From Deltaproteobacteria bacterium (lineage in GTDB: Bacteria > Desulfobacterota > Desulfobacteria > Desulfobacterales > UBA5852): 64,000 bases of DNA. Under the pieces are notes generated by a model, which saw nothing but the letters and a program-made list of their open reading frames with translations, did no database searches and was not told the origin of the DNA. Shown one piece after another: positions 33,517-46,558 of the stretch; the first letter of the stretch is position 1; each line of letters starts with the position of its first letter. A program made the position numbers and the translations under genes. The stretch lies in contig JAHLLS010000007.1 of NCBI GenBank assembly GCA_020444045.1, positions 1 through 64,000 on the forward strand, given 5' to 3'.

Positions 33517-34500
33517 ATGAGTCAGGATAAGGATGAATACGAAGTCGGCATCCCTTTGGACGATTTGGTCGCGGATGAAAATGTGCCTGAAGGCGAATCC
33601 GACGATTTGACAGACAATGAGGTTCCCGGCGATGGCCCGGTGACAGAAAGTGATGGATTGCCATCCCTTTTTGACGAGGACGAATTGGCGGAAGTTGGTC
33701 TAAAAGCCTCCCCATTTGATGATGACGATGAAACGGGGAAACCCGAGGAGGGCTTGTCCATTGCCCCCGATCATGGCGATGAAGAAGAAGATCTGGATGG
33801 GATGCCTGAACTCGGAGACATCCCTGCGGAAATCGGGTCCTCTTTTGAGGAATCCGAAACCGTTGAGAGCGCTCACGATGATAAAACAGCGCCGGAAGAC
33901 CTGGCATCTGGAGCGCTGCCGGAAATGGGCGCGGATGAGACGATACTGGAATCACAATCCTTCGATCTTCAGCACCATCTTGATGACATCCAATCCCAGC
34001 TGGTTCAGCTCAAAGCCGAGTTTGCCGGCAAGATCAAATACGATGAACATAAAGACGAAATTATCGACAAACTCCACCAGGAATTACAGGAATACAAACA
34101 GGACATTGTAAAAAAACATATTCTGTCCATTGTTTTGGATGTTGTTAAGGTTGCCGATGATATCCGCAAATGGATTGCCTATTTCAGGTCGTTGGATGTA
34201 TCCCAACGGGACCCGGTGAAATTATTTCGCTATCTAGAGGCCATTCCCTCCGACCTGGAAGATATTTTTTATTGGCAAGGCGTCAAACCTTACACGAACC
34301 GGGAGGGTGTTTTCGATCCGGCGAAACAGCGCACCATCAAGAAAATTATCACCGATGACCCTTCTAAAGACAAGACCATTGCCAAGAGCTTACGCCCTGG
34401 ATATGAATGGGAGGGAAAAGTGATTCGGCAGGAAATGGTTGCCGTCTATGTCTATGAAGATCCGCAAGAATCAGTAAATACGGGGAATATTGATGAGTGA
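33517..34500 (+). CDS. GrpE-like nucleotide exchange factor with long acidic N-terminus
   Basis: 327 aa. Residues 1-145 are acidic and low in complexity (Asp, Glu, Gly, Pro). Residues about 150-210 form a coiled coil (LDDIQSQLVQLKAEFAGKI, IIDKLHQELQEYKQDI) resembling the GrpE long helix. The C-terminal part GVFDPAKQRTIKKIITDDPS...SLRPGYEWEGKVIRQEMVAVYVYE matches the GrpE beta domain that contacts the Hsp70 lobe. GrpE normally is about 200 aa, so the acidic extension is unusual. Its stop overlaps the Hsp70 ATG by eight bases (ATGAGTGA). It is probably the private exchange factor of the neighbouring Hsp70. Confidence 0.75.
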   Translation: MSQDKDEYEVGIPLDDLVADENVPEGESDDLTDNEVPGDGPVTESDGLPSLFDEDELAEVGLKASPFDDDDETGKPEEGLSIAPDHGDEEEDLDGMPELGDIPAEIGSSFEESETVESAHDDKTAPEDLASGALPEMGADETILESQSFDLQHHLDDIQSQLVQLKAEFAGKIKYDEHKDEIIDKLHQELQEYKQDIVKKHILSIVLDVVKVADDIRKWIAYFRSLDVSQRDPVKLFRYLEAIPSDLEDIFYWQGVKPYTNREGVFDPAKQRTIKKIITDDPSKDKTIAKSLRPGYEWEGKVIRQEMVAVYVYEDPQESVNTGNIDE

Positions 34501-36157
34501 TCCAATCAACAAAATTTTTGGTATTGACCTTGGCACAACCTATTCTTCCATTGCCTATGTTGACGAGTACGGCAAACCGGTCATCATTCCCAATGCGGAG
34601 AACCAACGTATCACGCCTTCCGTGGTTTTCTTTGATGGCAGCGAGATTGTTGTCGGCGACGTTGCCAAGGAAAGTGCCAAGCTTTATCCCAATGAAGTGG
34701 TAAGCTTTATCAAACGATCCATGGGGGAAGCCAATTTCCTATACGAATATGACGGTAAACCGTATCGTCCGGAGGAAATTTCGAGCTTTATCCTGCGCAA
34801 AGTCGCCCAGGACGCCGAGCAGACCATTGGCGAAAAGGTCCAGGATGTGGTCATCACCTGCCCCGCCTATTTTGGTATCAATGAGCGGGAGGCAACCCGC
34901 AAAGCAGGAGAAATTGCTGGCTTTAACGTGCGTCAAATTATCAATGAGCCCACGGCCGCTGCAATTGCTTACGGAACCGTTCAGGAAACGGAGAATCGTG
35001 TTGTTCTGGTTTACGATTTAGGCGGTGGTACATTTGACATCACCATGATCGACATTCAGGAAAGTTCGATCGACGTGATCTGCACGGGGGGCGATCACAA
35101 CCTGGGCGGTAAAGACTGGGATGATCGCATCGTTGCCTTCTTGGTGCAGGAATTTCAACGCCAGACCCAATCCGAGGATGATATATTAGAAGACCCCGAT
35201 ACATGGCAGGATTTGCAGCTCTCGTCGGAAAAATCAAAAAAAATCTTATCCCAACGCGATAAAACCCCCATATCCATAACGCATGGTGGTGATCGGGTAA
35301 AAGTCGAGTTGAGTCGCGATAAATTTTTAGAAATCACCGAAGATCTTTTGGAACGCACCATTGCCTTGGCGCATGAAATGTTAAAAGAGGCTAAAACTAA
35401 GGGATACGAGCATTTTGATGAAATTATCATGGTGGGAGGATCCACCCGGATGCCGCAAATTCCAGATCGAATCCGCCAGGAATTCGGCATGGAACCCCGC
35501 ATGTTTGATCCGGACGAAGCTGTCGCCAAAGGCGCCGCCATTTACGGGTGGAAATTATCACTCAACGATGGGTTAATACGCCGAATTGCTAAAAAAACGA
35601 ATCGGGAGATTGAAAACAGCGACAATATTTTTGAAACCACCCCGAAACAGATCATGGAAGAAGTCGCCAAGGAAATGTCCGAAGAGACAGGTGTTACGCT
35701 TTCGGCGGTGAAACGATCGACCATGAGAATCAGGGACGTCGCGAGTAAAAGTTTTGGTGTTGTGGCCCGTCGTCCCAACAATCAAGAGGGTGTTTTCAAC
35801 CTCATTTTGAAGAACACCGCTGTTCCGGTTGAAACAAAACGGACCTTCTATACGCCGGAAGCCAATCAGGAAAGAGTGCTGATTCGCATCATGGAAAACG
35901 AAACCAATGAAAAAGTCGTTGCGGTTGAGCACTCGATTGGAATAGGCACGGCCGTATTGGATTTGCCGGAGGGGCTCCCGGAAGATTCGCCGGTAGAGAT
36001 TACCTTTAATCTCAATCGGGAAGGCCGATTGCAGATTACGGCGATTGAAGCTACCGAAAACCGTCAGGTTGTCGCCAAGATCGAGACAAGTTCTGTTATT
36101 CAAGGTAAGGAACTGAAGGAGGCCATTGAGAGAGCTCAGCATCTGGTGGTGCATTAG
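34493..36157 (+). CDS. Hsp70-family chaperone, short form without lid
   Basis: 554 aa. The ATPase domain is complete: GIDLGTTYSS, VYDLGGGTFDITMID, GGDHNLGGKDWDD and IMVGGSTRMPQIPDRI are the phosphate and adenosine motifs. After about residue 370 it departs from DnaK: the linker DVLLLDVTPLSLG is replaced by MRIRDVASKSFGVV, preceded by a Glu/Lys-rich segment. The beta substrate-binding domain is present (FNLILKNTAVPVETKRTFYT and following strands), but the alpha lid is missing. Likely acts with the GrpE-like upstream gene and the J-like membrane protein downstream. Start ATG 34493. Confidence 0.85.
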   Translation: MSDPINKIFGIDLGTTYSSIAYVDEYGKPVIIPNAENQRITPSVVFFDGSEIVVGDVAKESAKLYPNEVVSFIKRSMGEANFLYEYDGKPYRPEEISSFILRKVAQDAEQTIGEKVQDVVITCPAYFGINEREATRKAGEIAGFNVRQIINEPTAAAIAYGTVQETENRVVLVYDLGGGTFDITMIDIQESSIDVICTGGDHNLGGKDWDDRIVAFLVQEFQRQTQSEDDILEDPDTWQDLQLSSEKSKKILSQRDKTPISITHGGDRVKVELSRDKFLEITEDLLERTIALAHEMLKEAKTKGYEHFDEIIMVGGSTRMPQIPDRIRQEFGMEPRMFDPDEAVAKGAAIYGWKLSLNDGLIRRIAKKTNREIENSDNIFETTPKQIMEEVAKEMSEETGVTLSAVKRSTMRIRDVASKSFGVVARRPNNQEGVFNLILKNTAVPVETKRTFYTPEANQERVLIRIMENETNEKVVAVEHSIGIGTAVLDLPEGLPEDSPVEITFNLNREGRLQITAIEATENRQVVAKIETSSVIQGKELKEAIERAQHLVVH

Positions 36158-36448: not shown

Positions 36449-38920
36449 ATGAGCAGAATAAATTTCTATCAACTTTTGGAATTGAAAATAAATCCACCTG
36501 AATCGAATCCCCAAGTTATTGAATCGGCCATTAAAAGAAAGCAGACGGAATGGAGCCGGCTTCGTAACCACCCTACCAAAGGAACCCTGGCCCGCCAATA
36601 CATTAGCTTGTTGACAGAGATTCGAAGCGTCATGGCGGATAACCAACTAAGGGAAAAAGAGGCCCGCCACGCGCTTGATCTTCTCAAGAAAAAACTGGAA
36701 GCCAAATTTAAAAGAATTGACAGCCATGTCAAGCTATTAGGTTGCAAAGGTGATCTTTCGGATATTGAAATAGTGAAGTTGGCCGATTTTCACAAAGTAA
36801 AACCGCAAATTATTCAAAGACGGGTTGACCGCTGGAAAAAGAAGCATGGCAGTGCTTTGGAAGTTTATCTCAGTCAATTGCTGATCGATAAGAAACCGGA
36901 TGAAAAAACGACCCAGAAAATCGCCGCCCAATTTGATACGTCGCCCGCAGAGGTGCAGGCCGTTCTAAAAAAACTGCTTGAAGATCGTTCCAGTGAGGTC
37001 GATGCGTACATCAATATCCAGATCCGCAAGGGGTTTATGACGCAAAAAGAGATTTCGAGCCTGGCTCAAATCTATTCGTTAGATCAAGGTGACGTCCTAC
37101 GCCTGATACGCTGTCCGATCAAGAAAGAATCCGAATCCGAACTTGACAACATCTATCAACTTGACAGCACCGTCGAACAGTTCATCAATGAGAATCTTAA
37201 AATCGTTGAACAAGACTCACTCTACAGTTTTTTAGGCCTTTTTCCTGGTTCGACTCTTGAAGCGCTTCAAAAAAAGGCGCTTGAAAAAGAAAAAGAAATT
37301 CGTAAAATTTCTCAAAAAGACGCGTTTGTCACGGCCAGTGGTGTTCTTGCCGGCCAGAGCATATCTATTTTCAAAACAGATGAAAGCCGCTATGCGTATG
37401 ATTTAAGCCGTGCCCGATCCTTATTAAAAAACCTTAGCCGAGATTTGACGCTCGCTGTTAGCAACAACACGGTTCGGCCGGAATATTTTCATCATTTACT
37501 TCGCGAGGCTGTCAGTTTTGGTGCCGATCCAGATGAAGCTCGTCAACATATATTTGACTACTGCCAATCCAAAAAATGGAAAATAAACTTACCCAAGAAG
37601 AAAATCGATTTTAAACGCTATGCCCGCGTTGCACTGATAACGTTGAGTGTTTTTTTGATCGCGGGAGCGACTTTCTGGTATTTCTATTTCAGCAAGCAGC
37701 GTTTGGAGGAAGCATATACCCGGACGATAGCCAAAGCCAACCAGCAGCCCACCTTAGAAGCCCAAGTGCGCGTTTATGAGCGCTACATTGAAAACACTGA
37801 TCAAGAAAATCTTAAAGAACGCGCTACAAAAAATATCGAATCACTCCAGAACCGAATTATACAAAGAGATTTTAAAATTGTCGATCAAGCCGCCGAAAAG
37901 CTCTACCCGGATAAACAATATGAAGAAATCAACGATCTCTATTCCCAGTTCTTATCCCATCATGCCAATTCCGCCTGGGCAGATAAGATTCGTGAAAAAT
38001 CAGCTCTAATTCCCAAGCTGATCGATGAACGCGACTATCAAGCGCTGTTGGATATTGCGTCGGATGAGCCTGAAAAAAAGGCCCACGCCGGGGCCGGTTA
38101 TCTGCGTCGCCACCCCGATGGAGCCCATGTGGTGCCGGTAAGAAAAATCATAAAAGAGGTTGAAGCAAAATATTATCAAAATGTCATCATCGATTTGCAG
38201 CAATGTGAAAAAAAACAAGACTGGCATCAATGTATTTCACTGTGCAGTCGCTTCATCGATGTGTATCGTGACTCCAACGCGGCATTGGAACTTAAAGAAA
38301 AACGGGATAATTATCAAATTAGCCTTCAAAATGCGGCTGTTTTGGAGAAATTGATGGCCCGGGCTGGTGGCGCAGAAGCGCAGCCTGACGCCATTCGTTC
38401 CGTCTTTGAGGCGTTCATTCGTGAATCACCGAACAGCCCGGCCGCCAGTTTGGTGCGCGACAAACTCGCGTCAATCAACCAGCAACTCGATCGACAGGAA
38501 GCGGATCGGGAATTGGAAAAACTTCAGGCAATAATGAAAGATAAAAACGGCCGCTTTACCATCAAAAGAACCGACACCTTTCACGACAAAAAGACCGGGT
38601 TGACATGGACGTTGCTTGATTCACGTTTATCCAACGGCAAATGCATGACCTACGACGAAGCACGTCAGGCTGCAAACAGGATGAAACTGGGGGGATATAC
38701 TGATTGGCGTTTGCCAAACGCCAGAGAACTGATTGGTCTCTATGCGGGTGCGGATGCCTTCAATGGGTCGTCCAGCGCATGGTATTGGTCTTCAGACAGT
38801 TTTAAACGGTATTCCGCCGGGTGGGTTACCCTGGTTGATGTTGTCACTCCGGAACCGCAGCCATCGGTTCAAAAAAAGAATGCCAACACCTGTGGCTGGT
38901 TTCGAGCTGTTCGACCGTAA
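36449..38920 (+). CDS. Membrane protein with J-domain-like N-terminus and DUF1566/Lcl C-terminus
   Basis: 823 aa. Residues 5-62 follow a J-domain helix plan: FYQLLEL (helix I), VIESAIKRKQTEWSRL (helix II), RNHPTK (HPT at 41-43 in place of HPD), ARQYISLLTEIRSVM (helix III). A second similar start, SLYSFLGL, is at 257-264, followed by two amphipathic helices. One membrane segment lies at about 392-412 (ALITLSVFLIAGATFWYFYF). Then a helical, TPR-like stretch (about 420-690) of probable periplasmic location. Residues 717-823 are a DUF1566/Lcl-type domain (GLTWTLLD, YTDWRLPNARELIGLY, CGWFRAVRP). The order suggests a cytoplasmic chaperone-contact side and an outward sensing side. Function is not established. 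Confidence 0.7.
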   Translation: MSRINFYQLLELKINPPESNPQVIESAIKRKQTEWSRLRNHPTKGTLARQYISLLTEIRSVMADNQLREKEARHALDLLKKKLEAKFKRIDSHVKLLGCKGDLSDIEIVKLADFHKVKPQIIQRRVDRWKKKHGSALEVYLSQLLIDKKPDEKTTQKIAAQFDTSPAEVQAVLKKLLEDRSSEVDAYINIQIRKGFMTQKEISSLAQIYSLDQGDVLRLIRCPIKKESESELDNIYQLDSTVEQFINENLKIVEQDSLYSFLGLFPGSTLEALQKKALEKEKEIRKISQKDAFVTASGVLAGQSISIFKTDESRYAYDLSRARSLLKNLSRDLTLAVSNNTVRPEYFHHLLREAVSFGADPDEARQHIFDYCQSKKWKINLPKKKIDFKRYARVALITLSVFLIAGATFWYFYFSKQRLEEAYTRTIAKANQQPTLEAQVRVYERYIENTDQENLKERATKNIESLQNRIIQRDFKIVDQAAEKLYPDKQYEEINDLYSQFLSHHANSAWADKIREKSALIPKLIDERDYQALLDIASDEPEKKAHAGAGYLRRHPDGAHVVPVRKIIKEVEAKYYQNVIIDLQQCEKKQDWHQCISLCSRFIDVYRDSNAALELKEKRDNYQISLQNAAVLEKLMARAGGAEAQPDAIRSVFEAFIRESPNSPAASLVRDKLASINQQLDRQEADRELEKLQAIMKDKNGRFTIKRTDTFHDKKTGLTWTLLDSRLSNGKCMTYDEARQAANRMKLGGYTDWRLPNARELIGLYAGADAFNGSSSAWYWSSDSFKRYSAGWVTLVDVVTPEPQPSVQKKNANTCGWFRAVRP

Positions 38921-44363: not shown

Positions 44364-44711
44364 TTATTTATTCTTCAGTTCACGGAATCTGTTGATAAAA
44401 TCTTTGATGACCAGAATGGCTTCCTCGTCAATGTCGGTAAACTGAATTCCCATTTCAAACTTGCCGGTTTCACCATTCAGCAGATGGATAACCTTGCCTT
44501 TGAGATTGACAAGATCCTCTTCGAATCCCAGGGTCAATTCTACATTTTGATCCGATTCAATCGGGAAATGGGTTTCCAGTAAGATGCCGGTTTCCGACAC
44601 ATTGAGAGTGCGGCCAATGGCCTGCTTGACGGCCTCCTCCCGATCATCAACAGCAACATGGGATAAATTAAGCGCATTCACCCGTACATGTTTTCTTTTT
44701 TCGGATACCAT
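44364..44711 (-). CDS. PilZ-domain protein (cyclic-di-GMP receptor candidate)
   Basis: 115 aa, a single PilZ beta-barrel. The RxxxR motif is seen as RKHVR near the N-terminus, and the D/N-x-S-x-x-G motif as NVSETG. Both are intact, so it may bind cyclic-di-GMP. The rest fits a short PilZ: LLETHFPIESDQNVELTLGF and FEMGIQFTDID. It lies after the cyclic-nucleotide-binding protein and MglA-type GTPase genes, so it may serve in motility or surface-polysaccharide control. Confidence 0.85.
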   Translation of the reverse strand: MVSEKRKHVRVNALNLSHVAVDDREEAVKQAIGRTLNVSETGILLETHFPIESDQNVELTLGFEEDLVNLKGKVIHLLNGETGKFEMGIQFTDIDEEAILVIKDFINRFRELKNK

Positions 44712-44744
44712 ACTGATTCTCCTGTCAAAAAGGTCAAGATCAAC

Positions 44745-45932
44745 CTATCGCTGGGAGGCTTTTTTTTCGAGCTCACAGATGGCCATCGCTGTCGCCAGGA
44801 TATTGGTTGAAATATTTTCAAGCATATTTTTAAAGGTCAACGATAGTTGATCGTAATGATTCTGCAGCAATTTCTGGTCGATGGTTGATACCTTCAACCG
44901 TTTGTCACCCAACACAATGGCAGAAGTGGGTTCTAATCCCATATCGAGAAAGGGAATGTGCCCAATGAAATCACCTTTGCTAAGACCGGTAATTAACGGC
45001 ACAACGCCATGCTTCGTGTTTCGAACGATCGAAGCGCGGCCACCGGTGATGACAAATGATTTGTCGTCGTTTTTTCCTTCCTTGATGACAGGGCGTTTGT
45101 CTTTCAGGAGTTTTGCAGGGTCATTTTTCCCAATTGAGCAGGCAACCATACGCGTCATAATTTCGCTGAAACGATTATCGAGACTCCTTACCATGTTTCG
45201 AAATTCGGGCGGCATGCGGCTGAATTCACTTCCCATACCCTGTGAATCAAGCATGCCCAACTGCACATTGCCAATTGCTTGAGCGGTGACATTGCGTACG
45301 CTTTCGTCCGACAGCAATGCGCTGATGCTTCCAATAAAAGCGCCATCACTGAGTTGGAGAAATTTAATCGGTCCATTGGGGGTCGAGCGGGACAACTCGA
45401 CGGTTCCCTCGAGAATGACCCATATCCAGTTGCCATGGTTGCCTTCGACGATGATTTCTTCTCCGTCAAAAAATTCTTCTTCATCGACAACGTGCAGATA
45501 ATCGACTAATGGCCCCTTAATCAGCGGTAAGGATGACTTTTTGGCCGTCTCTTTTTTCGGTGCGGATTCGGTCTGAATGCTGACGACAGGCTCGACTTTT
45601 TCTATTTCGCCATCGTCCAGCATGCGAAGGCCGTCAAGAATGATTTCCATGCGGCTTTTGTTGATGGTGACTTCGCCATCATAGGGCTCGTCACTGAAGG
45701 AAAAGTCGCCTTCCATCCATCCGAATAATGAAAAAATGGCCTCAAGACCCCGCAGCTCACCGTTTAGTGAATGGGCCGGGTTGCCGCCTCGGAAATAGAC
45801 GATCCCGGGTTCCTGACTCGACTTCGCGTCTATTCTCAAGATGCCATTACTGCCATTGGAACCCAGCAACTGAAGAAGTTCAGCCAAATTGAGAAAACTT
45901 AAATTACCGGAAAGGACAATATTACTGGCCAT
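44745..45932 (-). CDS. DUF4388 plus cyclic nucleotide-binding protein
   Basis: 395 aa. Residues 1-105 form a DUF4388/PATAN-like domain (LSGNLSFLNLAELLQLLGSN...SGILRI-type pattern). Residues about 135-240 are a cNMP-binding fold (FFDGEEIIVEGNHGNWIWVILEGTVELSR). A second cNMP-like stretch is at 285-370 (SFVITGGRASIVRNTKHGVV, GDFIGHIPFLDMG). No DNA-binding domain, so it is not a CRP regulator. It lies between an MglA-type GTPase and a PilZ gene: likely a signalling adaptor of polarity, motility or secretion. Ligand not assignable. Confidence 0.8.
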   Translation of the reverse strand: MASNIVLSGNLSFLNLAELLQLLGSNGSNGILRIDAKSSQEPGIVYFRGGNPAHSLNGELRGLEAIFSLFGWMEGDFSFSDEPYDGEVTINKSRMEIILDGLRMLDDGEIEKVEPVVSIQTESAPKKETAKKSSLPLIKGPLVDYLHVVDEEEFFDGEEIIVEGNHGNWIWVILEGTVELSRSTPNGPIKFLQLSDGAFIGSISALLSDESVRNVTAQAIGNVQLGMLDSQGMGSEFSRMPPEFRNMVRSLDNRFSEIMTRMVACSIGKNDPAKLLKDKRPVIKEGKNDDKSFVITGGRASIVRNTKHGVVPLITGLSKGDFIGHIPFLDMGLEPTSAIVLGDKRLKVSTIDQKLLQNHYDQLSLTFKNMLENISTNILATAMAICELEKKASQR

Positions 45933-45943
45933 GGATACTCAGT

Positions 45944-46558
45944 CTATTTTGCCCATTTAAGTTGTTTCTGTAAATTCAGAAGTGTTCGCTTGAGGCACTC
46001 CATGATGGTTTGGGGGACACCCTGCCCCTTGATGGCGCTGGCACTGAAATGGGGTGCTTTCAGCTGCCGATTCAAATCCTGGTCCATACGCTCGATCGAC
46101 ATGAGCGGTATCCCCTCTTCCTCCAAGTCTCTTTTATTATACTGCATCACCAGCGGGACCTTAAATATGCTAGTTCCATAGGATTTCAAGTTTTCATGGA
46201 GGTCTTTCAAAGAAAGCATATTCTTCTCTCGGCGTACCTCCAAGGAATCTGCGACGAAAACCAATCCGTCAACCTCCTTTAAAACCAGTTTACGGGTTGA
46301 ACTGTATTGGACTTGCCCCGGAACGGTGTAAAGCTGAACTTTAACATCACATCCTTTGATTTTACCCAATCCCATCGGCAAGAAGTCAAAAAACAAGGTT
46401 CGATCGCCTTCTGTGTCAATGGAAACCATCTCTCCCGCGATTTGCTTCTTGTAGGTCTTGAAGATGTATTCAAGATTCGTGGTTTTGCCGCATCGTCCCG
46501 GGCCGTAATAGACGATTTTGCACTCTATTTCTCGTTTTTTAAAGTTGAACGTAGCCAT
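45944..46558 (-). CDS. MglA-type small Ras-like GTPase
   Basis: 204 aa. The P-loop is GPGRCGKT (residues 19-26); switch regions are EGDRTLFFDFLPMGLG and the G3 TVPGQVQY; G4 is NKRD in YNKRDL. These are signatures of the MglA/gliding GTPase family that controls polarity in Myxococcus and other proteobacteria. No MglB roadblock protein is next to it; the TPR-like protein upstream and the DUF4388/cNMP protein downstream may play that role. The start ATG 46558 is well placed. Confidence 0.92.
   Translation of the reverse strand: MATFNFKKREIECKIVYYGPGRCGKTTNLEYIFKTYKKQIAGEMVSIDTEGDRTLFFDFLPMGLGKIKGCDVKVQLYTVPGQVQYSSTRKLVLKEVDGLVFVADSLEVRREKNMLSLKDLHENLKSYGTSIFKVPLVMQYNKRDLEEEGIPLMSIERMDQDLNRQLKAPHFSASAIKGQGVPQTIMECLKRTLLNLQKQLKWAK

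Follow-up and report, generated by a model that had tools for sequence, protein, structure and literature searches.

A J-like protein with HPT at the HPD position, encoded beside a lidless Hsp70 altered at the corresponding contact residues in a Desulfobacterales operon

The window analysed here, a stretch of 64,000 nucleotides (contig JAHLLS010000007.1, positions 1 to 64,000) from a Deltaproteobacteria bacterium of the order Desulfobacterales, carries three successive genes on the same strand that encode a GrpE-like protein, an Hsp70 (Hsp70-A) and an 823-aa J-like protein. The features of the locus, with the evidence for each, are as follows.

33517..34500, + strand: GrpE-like nucleotide exchange factor, extended at its N-terminus by a long acidic stretch; the gene opens the operon (Pfam GrpE, E 4e-15)
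34490..36157, + strand: Hsp70-A, the dedicated Hsp70, 555 aa (Pfam HSP70, PF00012, E 4e-112, and key residues)
34934..34936, + strand: Gln149 of Hsp70-A, at the position of E. coli DnaK R167, the partner of the HPD Asp (alignment)
35543..35545, + strand: Tyr352 of Hsp70-A, at the position of E. coli DnaK Q378, the second Asp partner (alignment; contact from PMC8215388)
35723..35737, + strand: interdomain linker of Hsp70-A, MRIRD replacing VLLLD (alignment)
36449..38920, + strand: J-like protein, membrane-anchored, 823 aa (open reading frame; sequence and domain analysis)
36449..36676, + strand: N-terminal J-like domain, aa 1-76 (AlphaFold2 pLDDT 86.5; Foldseek top 14)
36569..36577, + strand: HPT at the HPD position, aa 41-43 (sequence and homologue alignment)
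36677..37114, + strand: helical region, predicted cytosolic, of repeated SKGxIxxxEIxxLA units, aa about 77-222 (alignment, model)
37217..37438, + strand: second J-like segment, lacking HPD, aa 257-330 (hhalign; helices in the model)
37619..37684, + strand: single transmembrane helix, aa about 391-412 (hydropathy, K/R counts across homologues)
38576..38842, + strand: C-terminal Lcl_C domain, presumably periplasmic, aa 710-798 (PF07603, E 2e-13)

A further helical stretch lies between the transmembrane helix and the Lcl_C domain of the J-like protein. Counts across homologues find K and R more numerous N-terminal of the membrane helix, an excess that would place both J-like domains in the cytosol, on the same side as Hsp70-A. 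A GrpE homologue is found upstream in 45 of the 54 related loci that have sufficient upstream DNA. Since the source genome encodes, apart from the operon, a canonical GrpE and a pair of canonical DnaKs, and has eight J-domain matches detectable by Pfam, the operon constitutes an additional machine. No match was found among the plasmids searched, and PADLOC returned no defence match for the 823-aa protein. Elsewhere in the window, on the minus strand, are a spore photoproduct lyase family protein (PF20903; 40184-41308) and a row of PilZ, DUF4388 plus cyclic-nucleotide-binding, and Ras/MglA-like GTPase genes (44364-46558).

The assignment of a J fold to the N-terminal domain comes from structure prediction. 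The AlphaFold2 model of residues 1-76 (pLDDT 86.5, pTM 0.67) is helical and J-like, with predicted helices at 6-9, 21-38, 45-63 and 65-75 and the HPT turn separating helices II and III. Foldseek comparison of this model to the PDB places J-domain proteins, by title or by inference, at ranks 1-14 (probability 0.75-0.99, TM 0.53-0.66, best E only 0.19); these comprise J-domains, HscB/Hsc20 and one J-domain fusion, and include axonemal and radial-spoke chains that we take to be J-proteins. A fold search with a 395-residue model was diffuse because that model is multi-domain. The helix I-II-III plan that a first-pass annotation had read from the sequence is thus borne out by the prediction that it proposed, and residues 1-76 are confirmed, at the level of the model, as a J-like domain. 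Sequence profiles divide between the two domains. In hhalign comparisons with 14 canonical J-domains, controlled by 150 column shuffles, the first domain aligns HPT to HPD with a score of 21.3 that is within the shuffle range (best shuffle 22.0), which leaves its J assignment to structure prediction. Residues 257-330 reach 75% (shuffle maximum 2.1%) and a score of 29.5 (best shuffle 15.6); this segment, with no HPD-like tip, is closer in profile to canonical J-domains than is the first domain. The second similar segment suspected from residue 257 onward is therefore present, and of the profile check proposed for both regions the part concerning residues 257-330 came out positive, that concerning the first domain negative. 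Neither Pfam nor NCBIfam gives a J-domain match for the 823-aa protein, Pfam gives none for 17 homologues either, and a PDB sequence search with aa 1-400 found no matches. The family suggests that J-like cochaperones escape profile-based annotation.

Thr in place of the motif's Asp, noted in the first pass within NHPTK at residues 41-43, is encoded at bases 36569-36577 and is a fixed property of the family rather than a chance replacement. The whole-protein homologue search gave NHPTK in 16 of 17 sequences and NHPIK in the other, and the 17 N-terminal homologues from 58 related genomes share the tip WSRxRNHPTK, again with one NHPIK. A wider set has NHPTK in 49/55 homologues and HPD in 0/55, Asp being absent throughout; 40 more profile-picked genome stretches, many of them from the same organisms as the 55, have HPTK in 37, HPSK in one and HPD in none, two being unparsed. 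The HPT frequency from a pattern scan of genome contigs is biased, because the patterns used contained RNHPTK or KQxxWSR; less biased samples are the homologue search of the 58 relatives and a 390-genome survey of the order. His-Pro is present in every Desulfobacterales member, and the WSRxRNHPTK tip is the best-conserved part of the 823-aa protein. The profile survey detects the J-like domain, with a patchy distribution, in 87/390 Desulfobacterales genomes. Desulfonema magnum and Desulfatibacillum alkenivorans are examples of cultivable organisms that carry the operon. Linkage of the domain to Hsp70-A is strict: among the 58 relatives the N-terminal J-like domain occurs in 18 genomes, each of which encodes Hsp70-A as well, and the one Hsp70-A lacking a J-like gene (genome G043) is 525 bases from a contig end, where the contig would stop short of its J gene. 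A full-text literature search found no paper on an HPT motif in connection with J-domains and Hsp70.

In standard teaching, HPD is the catalytic signature that all J-domains share unchanged. Loss of its Asp abolished Hsp70 stimulation in every tested system (PMC8215388), in agreement with what the first-pass annotation stated of canonical J proteins. In the E. coli complex DnaJ D35, the Asp of HPD, contacts DnaK R167 and Q378, while H33 binds the backbone of L391 and P34 packs on P419 (PMC8215388); R167 is otherwise paired with the linker D393 and with D481 of the SBD (PMC7289447). Two laboratory combinations offer a close parallel: the function of DnaJ D35N is restored by the DnaK R167H suppressor (PMC7289447, PMC5519331), and DnaK R167A is suppressed by DnaJ D35N as a compensating pair (PMC13012618).

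Hsp70-A has an intact NBD, retaining the catalytic residues G10, T11, K70, E171 and T199, and an SBD-beta, together with a hydrophilic linker, no helical lid, and an insertion of about 49 residues that follows position 378 and precedes the linker (aa about 353-411, window 35546-35722). The insertion site overlaps the canonical J-binding groove. Residue comparison of 52 non-redundant partner Hsp70s with 14 canonical Hsp70s, including E. coli DnaK and both DnaKs of the source genome, finds the Asp contacts lost in the former. Position 167 is Q in 45, H in four, G in two and A in one, and R in none; position 378 is Y in 48, F in four and Q in none; the canonical proteins have R and Q in 14/14. 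The His at 167 occurs naturally in the partner Hsp70s of loci L090, L096, L111 and L120. At the linker, position 393 is N in 34 and D in 18 (canonical D 14/14), position 391 is I or V with one F (canonical L 14/14), and positions 390 and 392 are mostly K/R as against L/V/I in the canonical set; the genome's own DnaKs keep both R167 and the VLLLD linker. P419, N170, T173 and E171 are invariant in partner and canonical Hsp70s alike, and positions 206, 214 and 217 are mostly acidic. By alignment, then, Hsp70-A retains the His-Pro contacts (N170, T173, P419) and has lost both Asp contacts. Among other divergent chaperones, a contig of another genome (G011, contig C25, locus L177) has in a row three or more highly divergent Hsp70-like genes, likewise without R at DnaK position 167.

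The earlier description of the partner Hsp70 as non-canonical thus holds for contact residues, linker and lid, and the accompanying guess that J-protein and Hsp70 have changed together agrees with the residues found at the known contacts (R167, Q378 and the linker). The statistical weight of this co-change is limited, since the joint change is seemingly a single evolutionary event: Hsp70-A appears to be one clade, which points to one joint event followed by drift of 167 from Q to H, G and A. For the same reason the idea of repeated independent covariation of HPT with Q167 was dropped. Hsp70-A has lost 18 of 109 canonical-invariant positions, and the probability that R167 and Q378 would both be among them (p about 0.026) is suggestive and on its own not decisive.

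It is moderately probable that the J-like protein and Hsp70-A are a cognate pair within a dedicated operon of GrpE, lidless Hsp70 and membrane J-like protein, with the HPD trigger replaced in both partners. On this reading the three gene products would form an Hsp70 machine that is complete in itself and kept apart from the cell's usual DnaK-DnaJ system. Anchored in the inner membrane, the J-like protein would expose its J-like domains to the cytosol and its Lcl_C domain, which may act as a sensor, to the outside; it would recruit Hsp70-A by direct binding and stimulate its ATPase, and the GrpE-like protein would reset Hsp70-A. Docking would likely occur at the usual place: helix II, which is basic, would meet the acidic face of the NBD, and His-Pro would contact P419 and the backbone of the linker. 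What normally acts as the trigger, the HPD Asp drawing R167 off the linker Asp, would be lost on both sides, and Thr would instead face Gln or His at 167 and Tyr or Phe at 378, beside the hydrophilic linker and the pre-linker insertion. The stronger proposal that Thr with Gln/His and Tyr makes a working, orthogonal natural pair insulated from cross-talk with DnaJ and DnaK is more tentative, and falls somewhat short of even. Against the cognate-pair reading stand the p value of only about 0.026 for the joint loss of R167 and Q378, which are two of the 18 lost invariant positions, the single joint event, the first domain's shuffle-range profile score and the fact that, in two tandem systems outside the main set (L122, L130), the second Hsp70 retains R167 beside the same HPT/HPS domain.

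The main rival is that the J-like domain is regulatory and non-stimulating, a binding or scaffold domain of the Pam16 kind that holds Hsp70-A at the membrane or regulates it there without triggering ATP hydrolysis; Hsp70-A would then run without J-stimulation, which would free R167 and Q378 from constraint. Known HPD-less J-like domains (Pam16/Tim16, plant J-like proteins) are regulatory, the second J-like segment is wholly without HPD, position 167 has drifted to four residues, and divergent Hsp70s elsewhere also lack R167. A mere tether, however, would need neither the highly conserved WSRxRNHPTK tip nor an invariant P419, and the ATPase residues and GrpE have been retained, so that this reading is unlikely, if still a serious one. 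Far less credible is that the HPT domain is a dominant-negative or decoy acting on canonical DnaK, in the manner of D35N DnaJ, with the neighbouring Hsp70 not its partner. The abolition of canonical Hsp70 stimulation on Asp loss in every tested system would fit a decoy, as would the presence in this genome of two DnaKs of canonical type and of eight J-domain matches by Pfam; but the domain is strictly adjacent to Hsp70-A and co-occurs with it throughout the order, and the contact sites show matching changes, all of which makes a decoy very improbable.

A different rival concerns biological role and is compatible with the mechanism of the cognate-pair reading, namely that the operon branched off, within Desulfobacterales, from a GTPase-centric conflict system, that its Hsp70 and J-like protein serve against invaders as a switch of threshold or sensor type, and that HPT is a by-product of this role. 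Outside the order, Clostridium, Tannerellaceae and Thiotrichaceae have HPTK domains, and a second locus in Desulfobacterales reads HPSK; these distant relatives have tandem Hsp70s or zinc-ribbon/repeat C-termini, and several adjoin DO-GTPase2 or GAP1-N2 genes. Their Hsp70-A has G (Clostridium) or Q at position 167 and their second Hsp70 has R or S, while a Ruminococcus relative combines an NPVK tip with A167 in its Hsp70. The parts of Kaur et al. 2020 consulted describe GAP1-N2 GTPase-centric conflict systems that contain Hsp70, GrpE and an FNIII-DnaJ protein, a theme that the distant HPTK clusters fit, and those parts do not mention loss of HPD or R167 (PMC7159879). A phylum-wide search found GAP1-N2 absent from the window's genome, and the lack of a PADLOC match and the C-terminus of transmembrane helix plus Lcl_C also make this role improbable. 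Membership of the window operon in the GAP1-N2 systems is accordingly not claimed; with the GTPase and GAP1 missing and the C-terminus different, it is treated as a sister system. Other loci of note include L122, L128, L130 and L132, where distant J-like genes of HPT, HPS or NPV type have Hsp70 genes as neighbours, arranged in tandem in L122 and L130, together with DO-GTPase2 or GAP1-N2 genes; L133-L136 of Oxalobacter, with side-by-side paralogous J-like genes having NNPxK/R tips and Sel1 or transmembrane C-termini; and L188, a GAP1-N2/Hsp70 locus without a J-like gene.

A lineage-wide J-like family in which Thr is fixed, with a partner Hsp70 changed at exactly the residues that the Asp touches, amounts to nature's own counterpart of the D35N/R167H suppressor experiment. 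The pair allows a direct test of whether Hsp70 chemistry depends on the Asp-Arg switch or has it as one trigger among several, and is a candidate insulated chaperone pair.

Among known systems, the canonical J-domain (PF00226; DnaJ, CbpA, HscB) shares with the domain described here helix I, a basic helix II, the HPx turn, helix III and a terminal helix of R..E/YD-like sequence, provides its best PDB fold matches, and has in common with it an adjoining Hsp70 gene; it differs in that the present domain has HPT, a longer helix I-II loop and helix II, and no Pfam match. Pam16/Tim16-type and other HPD-less J-like proteins likewise have a J fold without the Asp and are membrane-associated, and two J-like units may pair here. 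The partner of Pam16 is the canonical mtHsp70, unlike the present case, where conservation extends over His-Pro together with its flanking tip and the matching site of the partner Hsp70 is altered. The FNIII-DnaJ component of the GAP1-N2 systems belongs to the same set of Hsp70, GrpE and J-like genes (PMC7159879), and distant HPTK-tip homologues lie in such clusters, whereas the window operon is without DO-GTPase or GAP1 and its J-like protein ends in a transmembrane helix and Lcl_C. A close parallel is with the laboratory pairs D35N plus R167H or R167A, in which both the HPD Asp and R167 are likewise lost, and His at 167 occurs naturally in the present family; the natural pair differs in having Thr rather than Asn, in the additional change of Q378 to Tyr/Phe, and in the hydrophilic linker, the insertion and the missing lid of its Hsp70.
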